A stretch of DNA of 23,053 nucleotides from IMG/VR virus record IMGVR_UViG_3300049827_000058, positions 1-23,053 of that record. One strand, written 5' to 3'. A model generated the notes under the pieces. That model did not search any database and was not told the DNA's origin. It worked only from the letters and a program-made list of their open reading frames with translations. The translations under genes and the position numbers were made by a program. Within the stretch, counting starts at the first letter, position 1. Each line of letters begins with the position of its first letter. Shown here one piece after another: positions 12,880-22,716 of this stretch. This stretch comes from a virus.

Positions 12880-14319
12880 TTACTCGCCTAGTAGTGACGG
12901 CATAAGTTCATAGAGTTTCTTACGCTGTTCTTCGTCTGCTAGTAGTCCTAATGGTAGCACACCAGCAAGAATGTCTGCTTCTTTAGTTCTAGTTGGGTCA
13001 AAAGCAGCAAACTTACTTCTAATCTGGTTTGGCTCAAATACAACTCCTACATCTACTAGCTTTGGACTACCTGCGCCAGCATCAAAAGTATTTTTAAGAA
13101 TTAAGGCATCATGCCCCTTGCGTTTAGCTTCTTCAACCAAATCGTTGTAAGACTTCTCTCGGTATGCTTGACCTTTAAAATCGTAAACCATAGGGTTTTC
13201 ATAACGCAATGCAACTGGCATTACATTACCGCCTTCTTGCGTCTTATCAATTAAGGCTCGTTCAGCAGCAATTGCTTTAAAGTTATCAATCTCTTTTATT
13301 GCAGATTTAGCAGCTTTTTCACCAACCAAGTCAACAAGTTCTGTTTTTAGATTATTAAACTGCTCTGGTGTGTAAGTGTTATACCAACCATAAGGCATCA
13401 GTTCTTTATATTTTTTATCTAATAACTCTGCTTGTGCTTGTGGATGTTGCAGACTATAAAAAGTTTGGTTAATCTTTTCAGTCATTGTGTCTCTAGCATC
13501 ACCATACTTGGCAACCAATAACTGAGCATCATTCATGCGTTTTATTTCGCTATCCTCTGCAATGAGCATTTGTTTCTCGTACTCATCCCAATTTCCACGC
13601 TTTTCAGCAGACTTAGCTTTACGCATTGCTTCTCTATATTCTCTTGACCCACCAATCTGTGCATATCCTGATGCTGTTTCAGCACCATGACCTTTCATGG
13701 ACACAGTATTTAGTGCTGCAATTTCTTCGTCAGTTTTACCTAATTTCTTTAAAAATTCAATAGACTTAGGGTCTGTTGTTTTTTGCAACATTGCTGCTGG
13801 AGGGTTTTGTGGGTCACGAGCAAAGAAAAAGCCTTTTTTAGCACTTTCAGCACCAGTTGCCTCACCTAACAAGCCCTTGTCAAACGCTTTAATATCACCT
13901 GTACTTCCGTGATACCAACCATAGTCATACCCCTGTTGCAATGAACGAGTGTATGGATTTGGTGATTGACCAATCCTCTCTGCTGCTTCTTTAGCCATCT
14001 GCTGATTTAAAGCAGGAGTTATTTCTTTAATACTTGCACCTACTGGTAAACCCTTAGTAAGTGGGGCTAACAAAGGTGCGGCTTGACCTAACAAGCCTAA
14101 AGCAAACGCTGGCTCTGCGGCTTTTCTAATCTTTTCGTAATCAGGATTTAGAACACTAAACCCCATTTGGTCAGGAGCAGTACCTAACAATCCCTGAACA
14201 ACCGCATAGGTGCGAGGGTCTGCCAATGTGTTTACATCACGCTGTGCGGCTAAAGCCCTAGCCCTAGCACCTTGACGCTGTAAATTAGGATTACCAAAAA
14301 ATGCGCCTAGTTCAGCCAT
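12880..14319 (-). CDS. Putative ADP-ribosyltransferase (polyvalent-protein ART type), likely virion-associated
   Basis: 479 aa. Residues 134-170 (GWYHGSTGDIKAFDKG, then KKGFFFARDP) match the start of ART domains of the polyvalent-protein class: Tyr136-His137-Gly138 and an aromatic-rich second strand at 164-166. Residues 366-435 match its end: NVMPVALRYENPMVYD, GHDALILKN and FEPNQIRSKF, with Gln432 at the usual third catalytic position. About 190 helical, charged residues lie between the two halves. Residues 70-95 are a hydrophobic Ala/Leu segment like that in ejected phage proteins. Known phage ARTs such as T4 Alt modify host RNA polymerase; target and ejection here are inference. It overlaps the preceding 57-aa gene by one base (TAATG). 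Confidence 0.7.
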   Translation of the reverse strand: MAELGAFFGNPNLQRQGARARALAAQRDVNTLADPRTYAVVQGLLGTAPDQMGFSVLNPDYEKIRKAAEPAFALGLLGQAAPLLAPLTKGLPVGASIKEITPALNQQMAKEAAERIGQSPNPYTRSLQQGYDYGWYHGSTGDIKAFDKGLLGEATGAESAKKGFFFARDPQNPPAAMLQKTTDPKSIEFLKKLGKTDEEIAALNTVSMKGHGAETASGYAQIGGSREYREAMRKAKSAEKRGNWDEYEKQMLIAEDSEIKRMNDAQLLVAKYGDARDTMTEKINQTFYSLQHPQAQAELLDKKYKELMPYGWYNTYTPEQFNNLKTELVDLVGEKAAKSAIKEIDNFKAIAAERALIDKTQEGGNVMPVALRYENPMVYDFKGQAYREKSYNDLVEEAKRKGHDALILKNTFDAGAGSPKLVDVGVVFEPNQIRSKFAAFDPTRTKEADILAGVLPLGLLADEEQRKKLYELMPSLLGE

Positions 14320-15584: not shown

Positions 15585-15842
15585 CTATCCTATCAACTTT
15601 CTCAGGGTTTCGTTTAAAACTGACATTTCTGTGTGCTTATAAACCGACCATATCCTAGCTTGCCCATGAATTCCATTGTGGCTACCCTGATGGCAATCCT
15701 TACATAGCGGAATACAAAGGTACTGCTGATGTTGCTCAATGTGGTGAGCATCTGATGGCCCTGCCTGACCACAGACCCCACAAGGCATCTCTTTGACCCT
15801 TGCTAGGTGTAATCTCTCACGGCTAGAAAGTTTGTTATTCAA
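15585..15842 (-). CDS. Ref-like HNH nuclease (RecA-dependent nuclease family)
   Basis: 85 aa, TTG start at 15842 overlapping the upstream gene by eight bases. The family N-terminus (RERLHLARVKEMPCGVCGQ) is conserved, which supports the TTG rather than ATG 15788. Cys21/Cys24, His33-His34 (SDAHHIEQH), LCKDCH at 46-51 and SHNGIHG at 54-60 give the zinc and HNH sites of the Ref/DUF968-like group. P1 Ref cuts D-loops made by RecA; whether this short protein does so is inference. It is the last gene before a strong terminator. Confidence 0.8.
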   Translation of the reverse strand: MNNKLSSRERLHLARVKEMPCGVCGQAGPSDAHHIEQHQQYLCIPLCKDCHQGSHNGIHGQARIWSVYKHTEMSVLNETLRKLIG

Positions 15843-16293
15843 TCTCTACCACCAGATTCCCATGTGACCTTATGTAGTCTTTTGTTTTCTGAATGTATCT
15901 CTCAAACTCTGATCTTGAGATACTTCCCTGTTGCAGATCAGCATATTCGATCAATTCTCTGATGGCTTTTATACCCTGACCATCCAATCCCATCTTCTTT
16001 GTCTCTTGAAAGCGTATAGCGGATTTGTGGAGGCTGTCCTGTGCTGTTTGGCATACAGGTAGCACTTCTGGGCCTATCCCATTCTTTCCCATCATCTCAG
16101 ACAGGTTTAGAACATCTACCAAGGTACGCCAGTCAGAGATAGTTCCAGAGCCTTTTGTCATTGCGTCTAGTGCTGAGTACTCAAGGAGTCTTAGTTTGTC
16201 CAGCTTGTCCCTCTGGGTTATCGATGCCCCGATTATTGCGTGAACAGTCGGGTCTATCAGATTCCAATGCTTTCTCTTTGTTTTCTTTCTCAT
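15835..16293 (-). CDS. Conserved phage protein of Burkholderiales type, unknown function
   Basis: 152 aa from ATG 16293 (MRKKTKRKHWNLIDPTVHAI); the frame extends to ATG 16314 (159 aa), but family members start with the basic RKKTKRKHW. Later segments are LDKLRLLEYSALDAMTKGSG, LNLSEMMGKNGIGPEVLPVC and ADLQQGSISRSEFERYIQ. I recognise this family from beta-proteobacterial prophages, where it is sometimes labelled a Fis-type regulator without evidence. It is mostly helical. The 5' part overlaps another small gene in a different frame, and the 3' end overlaps the Ref-like start. Confidence 0.75.
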   Translation of the reverse strand: MRKKTKRKHWNLIDPTVHAIIGASITQRDKLDKLRLLEYSALDAMTKGSGTISDWRTLVDVLNLSEMMGKNGIGPEVLPVCQTAQDSLHKSAIRFQETKKMGLDGQGIKAIRELIEYADLQQGSISRSEFERYIQKTKDYIRSHGNLVVEIE

Positions 16294-16378
16294 TGTCTCT
16301 GCCAAATATGGCATCCCATCGGTTTGAGTATTCTTGATTGCTTACAGAAAATGGCCGACCAATTGACCCTTTGCTCAT
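16181..16378 (-). CDS. Possible small protein with NRWDAIFG motif, long overlap
   Basis: 65 aa from ATG 16378, coupled to the upstream gene by an ATGA overlap. The motif SNQEYSNRWDAIFGRDN resembles short phage proteins that contain EY..NWDrIFgk. After this it runs for about 113 bases in another frame over the start of the next gene, and the C-terminal half is low-complexity and polar. Coupling and motif argue for a real gene; the long overlap argues for caution. Confidence 0.5.
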   Translation of the reverse strand: MSKGSIGRPFSVSNQEYSNRWDAIFGRDNEKENKEKALESDRPDCSRNNRGIDNPEGQAGQTKTP

Positions 16379-17000: not shown

Positions 17001-17140
17001 GTCTTCACCTGTAAAGATATAGGTACATAGATGCAAGCCTTGTCCTTGGAGTTCTTGACGTTGACAGGGTTAGGCAGTAACCGCCTTTTACAGTTACTGC
17101 ACTTTGCATCTGGCTCTTTTGGTTTGCAGCCTAAAAGCAT
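16997..17140 (-). CDS. 47-aa zinc-ribbon-like protein
   Basis: The frame runs from ATG 17140 to TGA 16997, coupled at both ends (TAATG with the gene before and ATGA with the gene after). The sequence includes MLLGCKPKEPDAKCSNCKRR, then LLPNPVNVKNSKDKACIYVP. Cys14 and Cys17 (CSNC) and Cys37 could bind zinc. It fills a gap that would otherwise be empty in a very compact run. Function unknown. Confidence 0.68.
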   Translation of the reverse strand: MLLGCKPKEPDAKCSNCKRRLLPNPVNVKNSKDKACIYVPISLQVKT

Positions 17141-17397
17141 TAGATGCCCCTCATGTCGTAGTCAACAGTAGCCGAGTGATCTGCCTCGTCTAAAAGGTGC
17201 TTGGCAAGGCGCATACTTCCCTCGATCTCTAATTCTTTGTATTGCTCAACAGTAAAGATACCCATGACGTTTCTGCCCTCAAACCAGACTTCCTCGATGT
17301 TCTCGTTATAAGTGCCTTCTTCGTCTTGCTCGTATTCCATCACGACAGTAACGATTACAGAGCCTTCACCAATGGTTGTGTCAAATTCGTATTTCAT
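17140..17397 (-). CDS. Small acidic phage protein, first gene of the promoter-to-terminator unit
   Basis: 85 aa. The N-terminal half looks like a beta-sheet (YEFDTTIGEGSVIVTVVMEY) followed by acidic loops (EQDEEGTYNENIEEVWFEG), and the C-terminal half is helical (TVEQYKELEIEGSMRLAKHL). AAGGATTAAGAA precedes the ATG. The gene follows the leftward operator-promoter at 17444-17473 and so is predicted to be among the first products of that unit. I do not know its function. Confidence 0.72.
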   Translation of the reverse strand: MKYEFDTTIGEGSVIVTVVMEYEQDEEGTYNENIEEVWFEGRNVMGIFTVEQYKELEIEGSMRLAKHLLDEADHSATVDYDMRGI

Positions 17398-17430
17398 TTC
17401 TTAATCCTTAAAAGTACCCTTGCGAATTGC

Positions 17431-17473
17431 TTGGGCTGACGTAAGTATAGCAAAGAAATAAACAAAATGTTTA
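17431..17473 (-). promoter_or_regulatory. Leftward operator-promoter, twin of the one at 21.4 kb
   Basis: On the minus strand: a 15-bp palindrome TAAACA-TTT-TGTTTA (17459-17473), whose first six bases can serve as -35, an 18-base spacer, and an extended -10 TGCTATACT (-10 hexamer at 17444-17449). The following bases TACGTCAGCCCA are shared with the rightward promoter. The remaining intergenic bases (17398-17430) contain a CCC/GGG leader stem and the ribosome site; 17474-17507 show nothing clear. Confidence 0.7.
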
Positions 17474-17507
17474 CCGATCAACAAATATATCTAGGTACTT
17501 TCCCTAA

Positions 17508-20342: not shown

Positions 20343-20441
20343 AGTGTGTGCCGCTTTTTAAACCACCCTTAAAGGAATTGCCAGCAGGAGAAGGGTTAAC
20401 TCTTTTCGGTTGGGTAGCAACTCCCGACCTAGCTGGATTCC

Positions 20442-20472: not shown

Positions 20473-20838
20473 TCAAATAAATTGATTATTTGTGATTTCT
20501 TTCGCAGGTCTTGGTCTGCCAAGCAATCGTTTAGCTTGTGCGTTCATCACAGCATACTCTGATTTGCTAAAGATACCCTTGGCGTTACGAATGTCAAAAG
20601 GGTTCAGCAAGCAGCGAGTTTCGTTTTTTGGTTTGTTCTCAATCAAGTGGTCAGCAAGGGTGTACTTAGCCACTCTGTAGCGACCAACCTTGACCTCCTC
20701 GGTTGTTAGATCACCTTTGTAGCGTAGTTTCTTAGCTGTGGACAGGACAGAGGATTTGGGCATACCTGTTAAGTCACAGACTTCTTGTGAAGTAAGTGGG
20801 CCATTCTGGAGGGCTTTAATTATTGCTTCTTGTGTCAT
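20473..20838 (-). CDS. Winged-helix DNA-binding protein
   Basis: 121 aa. Residues 3-60 are a clear winged helix: IIKALQNGPLTSQEVCDLTG, MPKSSVLSTAKKLRYKGDL, then wing strands VGRYRVAKYTL. The C-terminal half (NPFDIRNAKGIFSKSEYAVM) is unassigned; it ends in a basic GRPRPAKE patch. It may control the early genes or act with the replication protein. It follows a zinc-finger gene with a 23-base overlap and is transcribed from the repressor-like gene. Confidence 0.75.
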   Translation of the reverse strand: MTQEAIIKALQNGPLTSQEVCDLTGMPKSSVLSTAKKLRYKGDLTTEEVKVGRYRVAKYTLADHLIENKPKNETRCLLNPFDIRNAKGIFSKSEYAVMNAQAKRLLGRPRPAKEITNNQFI

Positions 20839-21142
20839 TTGTTTCTTGGTTTAATGGAATAGCTGGGCCTCTACGAATGTTGCAACCTTTGCAAGTCGGT
20901 ACAACTTCTAGCGGTTTGTTGTAATCTCTATGTTCATAGCATTGGGCAGGTTTGCCACAATCTACACATATCAATGTAGATACATGGGGAAGTAAGCCTT
21001 TTTTTACTGCCTGATTTACCTTTGAGGCAGCTTGTGCTTGACCATTTTTTTTAGGTCTTAGATCGCAACAAGTCCAACAGAATTTTGCACTATTTTCTCT
21101 GCCAATAATTTCTTGATTGCAATCGGCACACAATTTAGTCAT
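20816..21142 (-). CDS. Zinc-finger / HNH-like small protein
   Basis: 108 aa with two Cys clusters. The first is CADCNQEI with FCWTCCDLRPK, residues 5-29. The second is ICVDCGKPAQCYEHRDYNKP followed by VVPTCKGCNIRRGPA, a pattern common in small phage proteins and reminiscent of HNH nucleases (CxxC, H, CxxC, RRG). Catalysis cannot be judged, as only one His (in YEHRDY) is in a suitable place. ATGA overlap with the repressor gene indicates coupling. Confidence 0.72.
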   Translation of the reverse strand: MTKLCADCNQEIIGRENSAKFCWTCCDLRPKKNGQAQAASKVNQAVKKGLLPHVSTLICVDCGKPAQCYEHRDYNKPLEVVPTCKGCNIRRGPAIPLNQETNDTRSNN

Positions 21143-21327
21143 TTCTTAATCCTTTTGTTTAAGAAAAGTTTTGGGTAAGCCAATTTGACAGATGCGGGTA
21201 TTCCCCTAGTCATCCAGTTATTAATTCTTTGCTTAGATGTAATGCCTAGCTTTTTTGCAAGCATGGTAGTTCCACCTAAAAGTGCTATCAATTCTTTGTC
21301 TGATTGGATTTGATCTTGTTTGTTCAT
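21139..21327 (-). CDS. Cro/CI-like HTH repressor
   Basis: 62 aa from ATG 21327; the frame is open further upstream to 21477, but that region holds the promoters and operators. Residues 16-42 are a helix-turn-helix: LLGGTTMLAKKLGITSKQRI followed by NNWMTRGIP, close to the YdaS/Cro-type pattern with the conserved W-x-x-RGIP. It is divergently placed to the rightward recombination genes across a control region with palindromic operators, as lambda cro and cI are. No Shine-Dalgarno is present and a strong promoter ends six bases before ATG, so a leaderless message is predicted. Confidence 0.8.
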   Translation of the reverse strand: MNKQDQIQSDKELIALLGGTTMLAKKLGITSKQRINNWMTRGIPASVKLAYPKLFLNKRIKK

Positions 21328-21333
21328 AGTTGC

Positions 21334-21362
21334 ATCATAACAACAAAATTCATAAAAGTAAA
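21334..21362 (-). promoter_or_regulatory. Promoter of the repressor gene (leaderless start)
   Basis: Minus-strand TTTACT (21357-21362; 4 of 6), 17-base spacer, TATGAT (21334-21339; 5 of 6) with TGT extended -10. The predicted start falls on or next to the A of the ATG at 21327, six bases beyond the -10 box. Confidence 0.75.
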
Positions 21363-21373
21363 CGCTTTGTGAA
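21359..21373. promoter_or_regulatory. Degenerate operator copy over the repressor promoter
   Basis: TAAACGCTTTGTGAA agrees with the 15-bp palindrome at 17459-17473 (read as TAAACATTTTGTTTA) at 11 of 15 positions and overlaps the -35 box of the repressor promoter, suggesting autoregulation. Symmetry is imperfect. Confidence 0.45.
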
Positions 21374-21380
21374 AATAATT

Positions 21381-21408
21381 TAAACATTTCGTTTATTTGC
21401 GTTATACT
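21381..21408 (+). promoter_or_regulatory. Rightward operator-promoter of the recombination module
   Basis: The palindrome TAAAC-ATTTC-GTTTA occupies 21381-21395; its first six bases can act as -35 (4 of 6), followed by a 16-base spacer and TATACT at 21403-21408. The downstream bases TACGTCAGCCCA repeat those of the leftward promoter at 17.4 kb. A repressor bound at the palindrome would block polymerase. Confidence 0.7.
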
Positions 21409-21415
21409 TACGTCA

Positions 21416-21445
21416 GCCCACAACAAATCGTAAGTGGGTCTTTTT
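21416..21445 (+). promoter_or_regulatory. Leader hairpin before the first rightward gene
   Basis: CCCAC (21417-21421) pairs with GTGGG (21434-21438) and is followed by TC and five T residues, directly before the ribosome site AAGGA (21446-21450). It could be an attenuator or an antitermination site. The leftward twin also has GCCC and GGGT in the matching places. Confidence 0.4.
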
Positions 21446-21457
21446 AAGGAAAACAAG

Positions 21458-21547
21458 ATGAACTTCGAGAAAATCATGGATTACGTTACAGCAATATCAA
21501 TCGGTGTTGGCATGGCAGTTTTACTGGTTGCATGGTGGTCAGCATGA
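21458..21547 (+). CDS. 29-aa single-pass membrane peptide
   Basis: ATG 21458 follows AAGGA by seven bases; TGA 21547. The peptide MNFEKIMDYVTAISIGVGMA continues VLLVAWWSA, so residues 10-28 form one hydrophobic segment of membrane length. It is the first gene after the rightward promoter and is coupled (ATGA) to the next. Small membrane peptides are frequent in early phage regions; no function can be assigned, and it is too short and oddly placed to call a holin. Confidence 0.6.
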   Translation: MNFEKIMDYVTAISIGVGMAVLLVAWWSA

Positions 21548-21699: not shown

Positions 21700-21881
21700 C
21701 AAGACAAGACGCAATCAAAGACTTATCGCATGGTGAGTACTGTTGCTACTGTACTGAACAAAAGACCTACGGCTCTTGCTGTGGAGAAAACCACTTCGTA
21801 CCTTTTGAGGATTTATACGAGGAAGACAAAGAAGCAATGATCGAAGAATATTTAAGTCAAGGAAATGAAGATGTCAATTGA
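21696..21881 (+). CDS. Cys-rich small protein
   Basis: 61 aa. The segment GEYCCYCTEQKTYGSCCGEN has five Cys residues and is followed by HFVPFEDLYEEDKEAMIEEY, giving a likely small metal-binding knot and an acidic tail. Similar proteins with a CCGENHFV core occur in other phages, with no known function to my knowledge. It lies between the 51-aa gene and the annealase, overlapping both. Confidence 0.7.
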   Translation: MTRQDAIKDLSHGEYCCYCTEQKTYGSCCGENHFVPFEDLYEEDKEAMIEEYLSQGNEDVN

Positions 21882-22536
21882 AGCACTACTCAAGACGAAT
21901 GTTAATGAACACACAGAAAAGAAAGCTAACCTAACCTACCTGTCATGGGCTTGGGCATGGGCAGAGGCTCTCAAAGCAGACCCTAAAGCTACCTTCAAGG
22001 TAGAGATGTTTGATGGCAAGTGCTACATGGAGATTAACGGCACAGCAATGGTCTGGGTGACAGTTACCATGTTTGACAAGCCTATGACCTGCCAGTTGCC
22101 AGTTATGGACTCAAGTAACAAAGCAATCCCTCTTAAAGGCTATACAGCAGTCTCTAAGTACGGCAAAGAGTATCGGGTTGAGTGTGATGCGTTTGCGGTT
22201 AATACAGCCATTATGCGCTGCATGACTAAAGCACTTGGCTTGCATGGTCTTGGTTTGTACATCTATGCTGGTCAAGACTTGCCAGATGAAGATGCGCCAC
22301 CAGAAAAGGTCATCATCACACCTACTCAGGGTGCAATGGACAACATCCCAGAGGATGAACAGATTTATCTCAAAGAGTTAGCAATGGACTTAATTGCTCT
22401 CTGTGATAAAGAAGAACCTAAGACAGCTTGGGTGAAGTTGGAAGCAGAGAACCTAGATGCTGAACAAAAAATAGCATTGTGGACTCTGCTGCCTAGTAAA
22501 GTAAGAAGTTCCTTGAAAAAGGCTAAGGAGTTATAA
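21871..22536 (+). CDS. Sak/DUF1071-type single-strand annealing protein
   Basis: 221 aa from ATG 21871, which has AAGGA seven bases upstream; ATG 21865 is possible but too close to it. The pattern NVNEHTEKKANLTYLSWAWA, then CQLPVMDSSNKAI, CDAFAVNTAIMRCMTKALGL and LGLYIYAGQDLP is that of DUF1071, the Sak group of phage annealases. It would anneal homologous single strands in recombination, together with an SSB. The C-terminal 70 residues are a separate acidic/helical part. The first residues overlap the preceding gene by 11 bases. Confidence 0.9.
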   Translation: MSIEALLKTNVNEHTEKKANLTYLSWAWAWAEALKADPKATFKVEMFDGKCYMEINGTAMVWVTVTMFDKPMTCQLPVMDSSNKAIPLKGYTAVSKYGKEYRVECDAFAVNTAIMRCMTKALGLHGLGLYIYAGQDLPDEDAPPEKVIITPTQGAMDNIPEDEQIYLKELAMDLIALCDKEEPKTAWVKLEAENLDAEQKIALWTLLPSKVRSSLKKAKEL

Positions 22537-22716
22537 ATGGAGAGAGTATTTCATGCCCCAGAAGGATATAAAAGGCTCACGATTAACTTGCGTGAGGATA
22601 TTCATAAACAAATAAAACTAATTGCTGTGCAAGAGGAATCTACTGTTACAGACATTATTTCAAAGTTTCTTGAAAAAGAAATTGCATACAAAGAAAAGAA
22701 AGCAAAGGAAATTTAA
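22537..22716 (+). CDS. Ribbon-helix-helix (Arc/CopG-like) protein
   Basis: 59 aa, ATG directly after the annealase TAA, with AAGGAG six bases before. Residues 12-48 (KRLTINLREDIHKQIKLIAV, then EESTVTDIISKFLEKEI) give a beta strand and two helices, as in RHH repressors. The strand residues RLTIN would contact DNA. A lysine-rich tail follows. It may regulate the recombination module or another promoter. Confidence 0.75.
   Translation: MERVFHAPEGYKRLTINLREDIHKQIKLIAVQEESTVTDIISKFLEKEIAYKEKKAKEI

Follow-up and report, generated by a model that had tools for sequence, protein, structure and literature searches.

A predicted CI-free, Cro-type operator circuit at three early promoters of a metagenomic phage

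The window analysed here, the whole 23,053-nucleotide stretch of IMG/VR viral record IMGVR_UViG_3300049827_000058, carries palindromic operator-like sites at three early promoters, and we propose that it encodes a Cro-only early-gene circuit in which all three promoters would be shut off as a 62-aa Cro-type protein accumulates. We put the probability of this reading at roughly three in four. The layout of the window is that of lambda with the CI segment missing. The record is probably a fragment; end overlaps proving completeness were found in none of nine contigs checked. The phage presumably comes from freshwater, a habitat that we assume from its relatives and from what is generally known of metagenomes of this kind.

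Operators and promoters in the window

The sites and promoters of interest are as follows.

21381..21395, unstranded: operator O1, TAAACATTTCGTTTA, a perfect TAAAC-N5-GTTTA over the -35 of P-right
21359..21373, unstranded: operator O2, TAAACGCTTTGTGAA, weaker and degenerate, with two mismatches to TAAAC-N5-GTTTA; it reads TTCAC-N5-GTTTA on the minus strand and lies over the -35 of P-cro
17459..17473, unstranded: operator at P3, TAAACAAAATGTTTA, a perfect TAAAC-N5-GTTTA
21379..21408, plus strand: P-right, TTTAAA - 18 nt - TATACT, or alternatively a -35 of TAAACA with 16 nt; the -10 at 21403-21408 is kept in relatives
21334..21362, minus strand: P-cro, TTTACT - 17 nt - TATGAT, with TG ahead of the -10
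17444..17473, minus strand (leftward): P3, TAAACA - 18 nt - TATACT

A preliminary description, made from the letters alone, had placed a perfect and a degenerate palindrome at 21381-21395 and 21359-21373, and both were found there; it had also reported a leftward recurrence at 17431-17473, which we confirm and extend. The leftward copy at 17.4 kb aligned to 21381-21460 with a score of 42 (best of 500 shuffles, 16), and the similarity begins at the palindrome (17473) and extends over the -10, a leader hairpin and the Shine-Dalgarno sequence as far as the ATG at 17397. The stretches leading leftward from 17473 and rightward from 21381 are, as read from the sequence, copies of one promoter-leader unit. 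Exact TAAAC-N5-GTTTA occurs only twice in the 23,053-base record, at O1 and at P3, against 0.03 occurrences expected under a first-order Markov null (P(≥2) = 0.002). When up to three mismatches were allowed, the palindrome was not enriched in the record (107 found, 117 expected); the claim is therefore built on exact matches and conservation, and only exact or consensus matches were used for counts.

By their boxes, the three promoters appear sigma70-like. P-right and P-cro stand back to back, their -35 hexamers about 16 bp apart, and P3 is located between NinB and the block leading to the terminase, portal and capsid genes. The promoter scan by itself was not above chance (10 found, 12.7 expected), so that the argument for these promoters is carried by conservation. 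A terminator scan likewise returned three candidates where 5.7 were expected, and no terminator is claimed.

The 62-aa protein and the operons around it

The genes adjoining the three promoters are listed below.

21139..21327, minus strand: 62-aa Cro/YdaS-type HTH protein, the proposed repressor and first gene of the left (replication) operon
21458..21547, plus strand: 29-aa membrane-peptide-like ORF, the first gene after P-right; peptides of 26-30 aa occur in many relatives
21865..22536, plus strand: Sak-type single-strand annealing protein (PF06378, E 9e-38; phrog_659, 2e-44) in the right (recombination) operon
17140..17397, minus strand: 85-aa protein, the first gene after P3, conserved in relatives

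The 62-aa protein matched the DNA-binding protein phrog_8008 (E 6e-19), Pfam YdaS_toxin (9e-7; 29.1 bits, just below the cut-off of 30) and Pfam P22_Cro (E 0.0045), and is a small HTH protein of the Cro/YdaS families. Its AlphaFold model has five helices and a mean pLDDT of 87. A fold search with this model placed Cro proteins on top, with the prophage Cro 3bd1 as the best PDB match; the helical model resembles Cro and 434 folds, but with no significant E-value. Sequence searches of the PDB and of plasmids gave no match. The gene comes first in the replication-side operon and diverges from a second early operon, an order that is the same in relatives. The shared operator at divergent promoters suggested in the preliminary description is thus supported in silico, with three promoters involved and the HTH gene heading the left operon. 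We infer that the operators are bound by the 62-aa protein, which would thereby repress both its own promoter and the divergent one, on the basis of operator conservation, which extends to homologues down to about 50% identity, and of the co-replacement of protein and operator in close relatives.

Downstream of the 62-aa gene, the left operon encodes a protein resembling a helicase loader or replication initiator, a methylase-like ORF (identified by eye, not by family search), RusA and NinB. An Rfam search of the window returned only a sub-threshold int-alpA RNA match between two genes of this operon (20366-20439, minus strand; 25.1 bits against a gathering threshold of 35.8, E 0.22). The right operon comprises the 29-aa membrane-like peptide, the Sak annealing protein, an Arc-like RHH protein and an SSB-like protein. 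The slot after P-right often holds a membrane-like peptide and in other relatives holds unrelated small genes, as in a cassette slot. Pfam and PHROGs searches with the 85-aa protein were without match. The block after P3 also includes a 159-aa protein (15835-16314, minus strand; phrog_20828, unknown function) common to podovirus-type and siphovirus-type relatives, and a 479-aa protein elsewhere in the window (12880-14319, minus strand) gave a weak ADP-ribosyltransferase match (ART-PolyVal, Pfam E 4e-6, below the curated cut-off).

Conservation of the operators among relatives

The consensus TMAAC-N5-GTTKA, hereafter E62, was counted in 22 cro62 contigs (the window and 21 relatives; 571 kb), which were chosen for encoding the 62-aa protein and are partly redundant: 44 sites were found against 4.0 expected, and permuted palindromes gave 5, 8 and 10 matches. 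By our reading, 17 of the 44 fall at O1 in the switch, 19 at P3 (located with the pattern itself, and occupying the same place as the window's operator in 19 cro62 genomes) and eight outside both, within ORFs of 90 codons or more. Random occurrence in coding sequence had been named beforehand as the observation that would count against regulatory sites; instead, 36 of the 44 gather at promoters, and the eight intragenic sites are about the number expected by chance.

Among 24 non-redundant switches (mutually less than 93% identical), the AAC-N5-GTTK core of O1 is kept in all 24; this core, the TTTTC-ACA of O2 and the region of the cro -10 hardly vary, in contrast to the central five bases. O2 in relatives is mostly TTCAC-N5-GTTK and lies 22-23 bp from O1. 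In relatives the P3 operator remains intact while its distance to the -10 is 0, 8-9 or about 19-20 nt, behaviour that fits a binding site for a protein better than a promoter element.

The switch and the P3 unit occur both in podovirus-type genomes such as the window (portal, capsid) and in siphovirus-type genomes (portal, capsid, tape-measure; L075/L074 of G016), suggesting that the whole early control region may have been exchanged. Among the window proteins that were tested, the overlap between the two is limited to Cro, the P3 gene block and a few small genes.

Replacement of the 62-aa protein by a 50-aa Cro

In close relatives of the window, whose terminase is at least 85% identical, this place is taken by a different protein, 50 aa long and of the P22-Cro type; it was found at the switch in 19 loci among the terminase relatives (Pfam P22_Cro, 6e-10). 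These cro50 switches have their own palindrome, TAGGK-N5-MCCTA (E50; also used as TAGGK-N5/6-MCCTA), which was present in 14 of 15 non-redundant cro50 switches and in none of the 24 cro62 switches (Fisher 1e-9, relatedness ignored). The E62 core, in turn, was present in 24/24 cro62 and 7/15 cro50 switches (Fisher 1e-4, relatedness ignored). All 18 cro50 P3 regions contain E50 in its 15- or 16-bp form; this pattern was relaxed after the regions had been seen, with a background of about one per 7 kb, so that about 0.01 is expected per region. E50 also occurs in four of 19 cro62 P3 regions, the window's included:

17492..17506, unstranded: TAGGTACTTTCCCTA, matching the E50 motif, a probable relic of the 50-aa Cro's operator

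The E50 sites in cro62 P3 regions are thus probable operator relics. E62-type sites are found in the reverse setting, in the 7/15 cro50 switches above (TCAAC-N5-GTTGA in about half of the 50-aa switches) and in 5/18 cro50 P3 regions, so that the motif also occurs without the 62-aa Cro. The promoter-proximal half GTTTA, moreover, turns up again in cro50 promoters where the other half is missing, and part of the GTTTA conservation may belong to the promoter. Taken together, co-replacement appears to tie each Cro to its own operator, with the E62 sites in cro50 phages as the weak point.

One possible account, which we regard as doubtful and offer tentatively, is that these seemingly non-integrating freshwater phages exchange Cro and the switch operators as a cassette, after which P3 must acquire a new operator and old relics are left behind; should phages that differ in Cro type co-infect, the specificity of Cro would then act as an immunity-like trait between virulent phages. 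If true, such a trait would explain the E62 sites in some cro50 phages.

The operators could also belong to another binder, with the 62-aa protein a neighbour by chance: the Arc-like RHH protein (22537-22716), a winged-HTH-like 121-aa protein (20473-20838) or a host regulator. Both phage proteins look DNA-binding, and some phages that lack the 62-aa protein do have E62-type sites. However, the RHH protein was found in the window only, and the winged-HTH protein is absent from siphovirus-type genomes that keep the operators while being present in cro50 phages. E50 tracks the Cro type, and the same operators stand beside Cro homologues in phages of several hosts, Shewanella and Moraxella among them, which speaks against a host factor. 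We consider a binder other than the 62-aa Cro unlikely.

Temperate-type cousins and the apparent absence of CI

More distant homologues of the 62-aa Cro, about 50% identical and with the recognition segment QR-x-x-NW, are encoded in five temperate-type cousins (L055-L059). Here a triad of TAAAC-N5-GTTTA-type sites lies between a divergent HTH (CI) gene and Cro, just upstream of Cro, and a further operator site lies beyond the repressor gene. Shewanella phage QDWS and its relatives have the same triad and far site, beside a neighbour annotated as repressor protein C. In these temperate-type cousins, the operator overlaps the -10 rather than the -35. The Cro of Moraxella phage Mcat7 (segment TTVYNW) is associated with TACAC-type repeats instead, and a scan with this protein returned no relatives. 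The Cro of Acinetobacter phage fEg-Aba01 (segment QRVQNW) has upstream repeats of the form AATC-N5-GATT, which differ despite its segment; the recognition segment alone is therefore no full predictor of the operator. A profile scan of genome collections returned two loci only.

An S24 repressor was present in 5/5 and an integrase in 4/5 of the cousins L055-L059. In the window's clade, no integrase was found in 27 records, several of them contigs of 34-39 kb, and no serine recombinase or resolvase in 17 records, although these contigs are possibly incomplete, which affects both absences. No S24 repressor was found in 17 records, the window and 11 related contigs being without match, and no CI gene lies between the divergent promoters in the clade, the profile search having covered S24-type CI. 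Two operators, not the three of a lambda-type switch, lie between these promoters. Neither an opposing CI nor integration machinery, as a lambda-type bistable switch would have, was thus detected in the clade. The 'lambda-like switch' of the preliminary description holds for the shared operator and the divergent promoters; its implied pair of opposing repressors does not.

A complete lysis-lysogeny switch of the lambda type would still be conceivable if a CI-like repressor sharing the operators, and an integrase, were encoded elsewhere in the genome, outside this incomplete 23-kb fragment, and the window's operators are indeed those of temperate-type cousins with CI. Yet the searches that were positive in the cousins were empty in the clade, contigs of 34-39 kb included, and the cousins' CI sits between the divergent promoters, where the window's back-to-back promoters leave about 16 bp between -35 hexamers; we judge this arrangement quite improbable. 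That the palindrome is an element of the early promoters, or arose as a side effect when a promoter was duplicated, with no repressor at all, is very improbable: GTTTA beside the -10 of cro50 promoters and the plainly related sequences of P-right and P3 speak for it, but the site stays intact while shifting relative to the -10 among P3 regions, O2 lies the other way round on P-cro, and the cousins' site overlaps the -10.

Transcript starts and leader hairpins

The leaders of the three transcripts show the following features.

21325..21333, minus strand: cro leader gap GCAACT, six nt from the -10 to the ATG; predicted leaderless mRNA
21417..21438, plus strand: leader hairpin of the P-right transcript, CCCAC...GTGGG, pairing kept in relatives
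17417..17435, minus strand: leader hairpin of the P3 transcript, CCC...GGG, pairing kept in relatives

The 6-nt spacing between the -10 and the cro ATG is kept in all 24 non-redundant aligned 62-aa switches. Automatic scoring recovered it in 38 of 50 relatives, a rival hexamer having been picked in most of the other 12. The same six nucleotides separate the -10 from the start of the 50-aa Cro gene in 19/19 loci. Given start codons six nt past the -10, the mRNAs of both Cro genes are probably leaderless. At P-cro, the string GTTG.TA.GATGCAAC.ATG is near-invariant in relatives. The conservation around the cro -10 and start codon (GTTG.TA.GATGCAACYATG, 21325-21339, minus strand) goes beyond promoter needs. 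GTTG-N8-CAAC around this -10 was considered as a third operator and set aside, its half-sites having the opposite polarity to those of the operator.

Both non-cro operator-controlled transcripts open with a short hairpin just 5' of the Shine-Dalgarno sequence, and relatives pair with different bases. Across three small sets grouped by hand, 96-100% of cells are paired, compared with no more than about 63% in slid controls; compensatory changes are few, with five pairs changed on both sides over the three sets. A role in RNA stability would be a guess.

Proposed mechanism

On infection, host sigma70 RNA polymerase would fire P-cro, P-right and P3. P-cro would yield, leftward, the 62-aa Cro, the replication initiator, the methylase, RusA and NinB; P-right would yield, rightward, the small membrane peptide, the Sak annealing protein and the SSB-like protein; and P3 would yield, leftward, the 85-aa gene and the block before terminase. 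Cro, translated from a probably leaderless mRNA, would bind TMAAC-N5-GTTKA as a dimer. The perfect sites O1 and P3 would be covered first, turning off P-right and P3, and at a higher Cro level the weaker O2 would be covered, turning off its own promoter, P-cro. A precedent for such graded occupancy is YdaS, the Cro analogue of CP-933P, which binds in hierarchical order at the two promoters of an intergenic region of the cI-cro type (PMC8630535). Should P3 feed late genes, shutting it off late in infection would call for a further late promoter. We suggest that both layout and operators go back to a temperate immunity region of the lambda type from which CI and integrase have gone, a loss that would leave P-right and P-cro, the equivalents of PL and PR, back to back.

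Comparison with known systems

Control of divergent promoters by Cro-type proteins is a familiar arrangement, and annotated phages such as Methylophilales phage Venkman likewise show Cro but no annotated CI. Within the reach of our searches, three features are new: a third promoter under operator control, the joint replacement of Cro and operator, which leaves apparent relics, and Cro mRNAs predicted to be leaderless; no paper on this Cro-only circuit was found among the open-access literature on Cro-only virulent phages. The circuit would amount to the best-studied gene switch reduced to a minimum and stripped of CI, seen in many metagenomic viral contigs and in two unrelated virion types. 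Its swapped Cro proteins, operators and apparent relics make transcription-factor/operator co-evolution directly testable, and it raises the question of what purpose Cro serves in a phage seemingly unable to lysogenise.

As in the OR/OL system of lambda (CI, Cro), divergent early promoters share palindromic operators, and Cro comes first in the replication/nin operon (RusA and NinB here), with the recombination genes in the opposite operon. Unlike lambda, no CI was detected, the PL-like and PR-like promoters are back to back, the switch has two sites rather than three, and an extra operator-controlled promoter, P3, lies inside the left gene block. The operator here is the 15-bp TMAAC-N5-GTTKA. 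The leaderless mRNA of lambda is that of cI, whereas here it is predicted for Cro; lambda cI and paaR2 of CP-933P are both described as leaderless (PMC8630535).

YdaS of the cryptic prophage CP-933P belongs to the same Pfam family, for which the window protein falls just under the cut-off, and is likewise a Cro analogue acting on several palindromes over two divergent promoters, with GTTTA in the half-site consensus (PMC8630535). CP-933P differs in having a CI analogue (PaaR2) and YdaT, in its 18-bp palindromes with the half-site GTTTAGTAA, and in that its leaderless gene is paaR2 (PMC8630535).

L055-L059 and Shewanella phage vB_Sb_QDWS share a Cro about 42-55% identical, the same operator sequence and a cro start 6-9 nt after the -10. 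Unlike the window, they encode a repressor of the CI type (in L055-L059 an S24 protein, mostly accompanied by an integrase), three operators between CI and Cro, and the far site beyond CI.

The nearest annotated terminase relatives are Venkman and podovirus MW202481 (62-64% TerL identity). Their Cro is of another sequence group, no E62 triad was seen in them, and Venkman has its sak gene in the cro-side operon; like the window, both have a Cro gene, here annotated, at the divergent junction with no CI annotated, together with related head and terminase genes.
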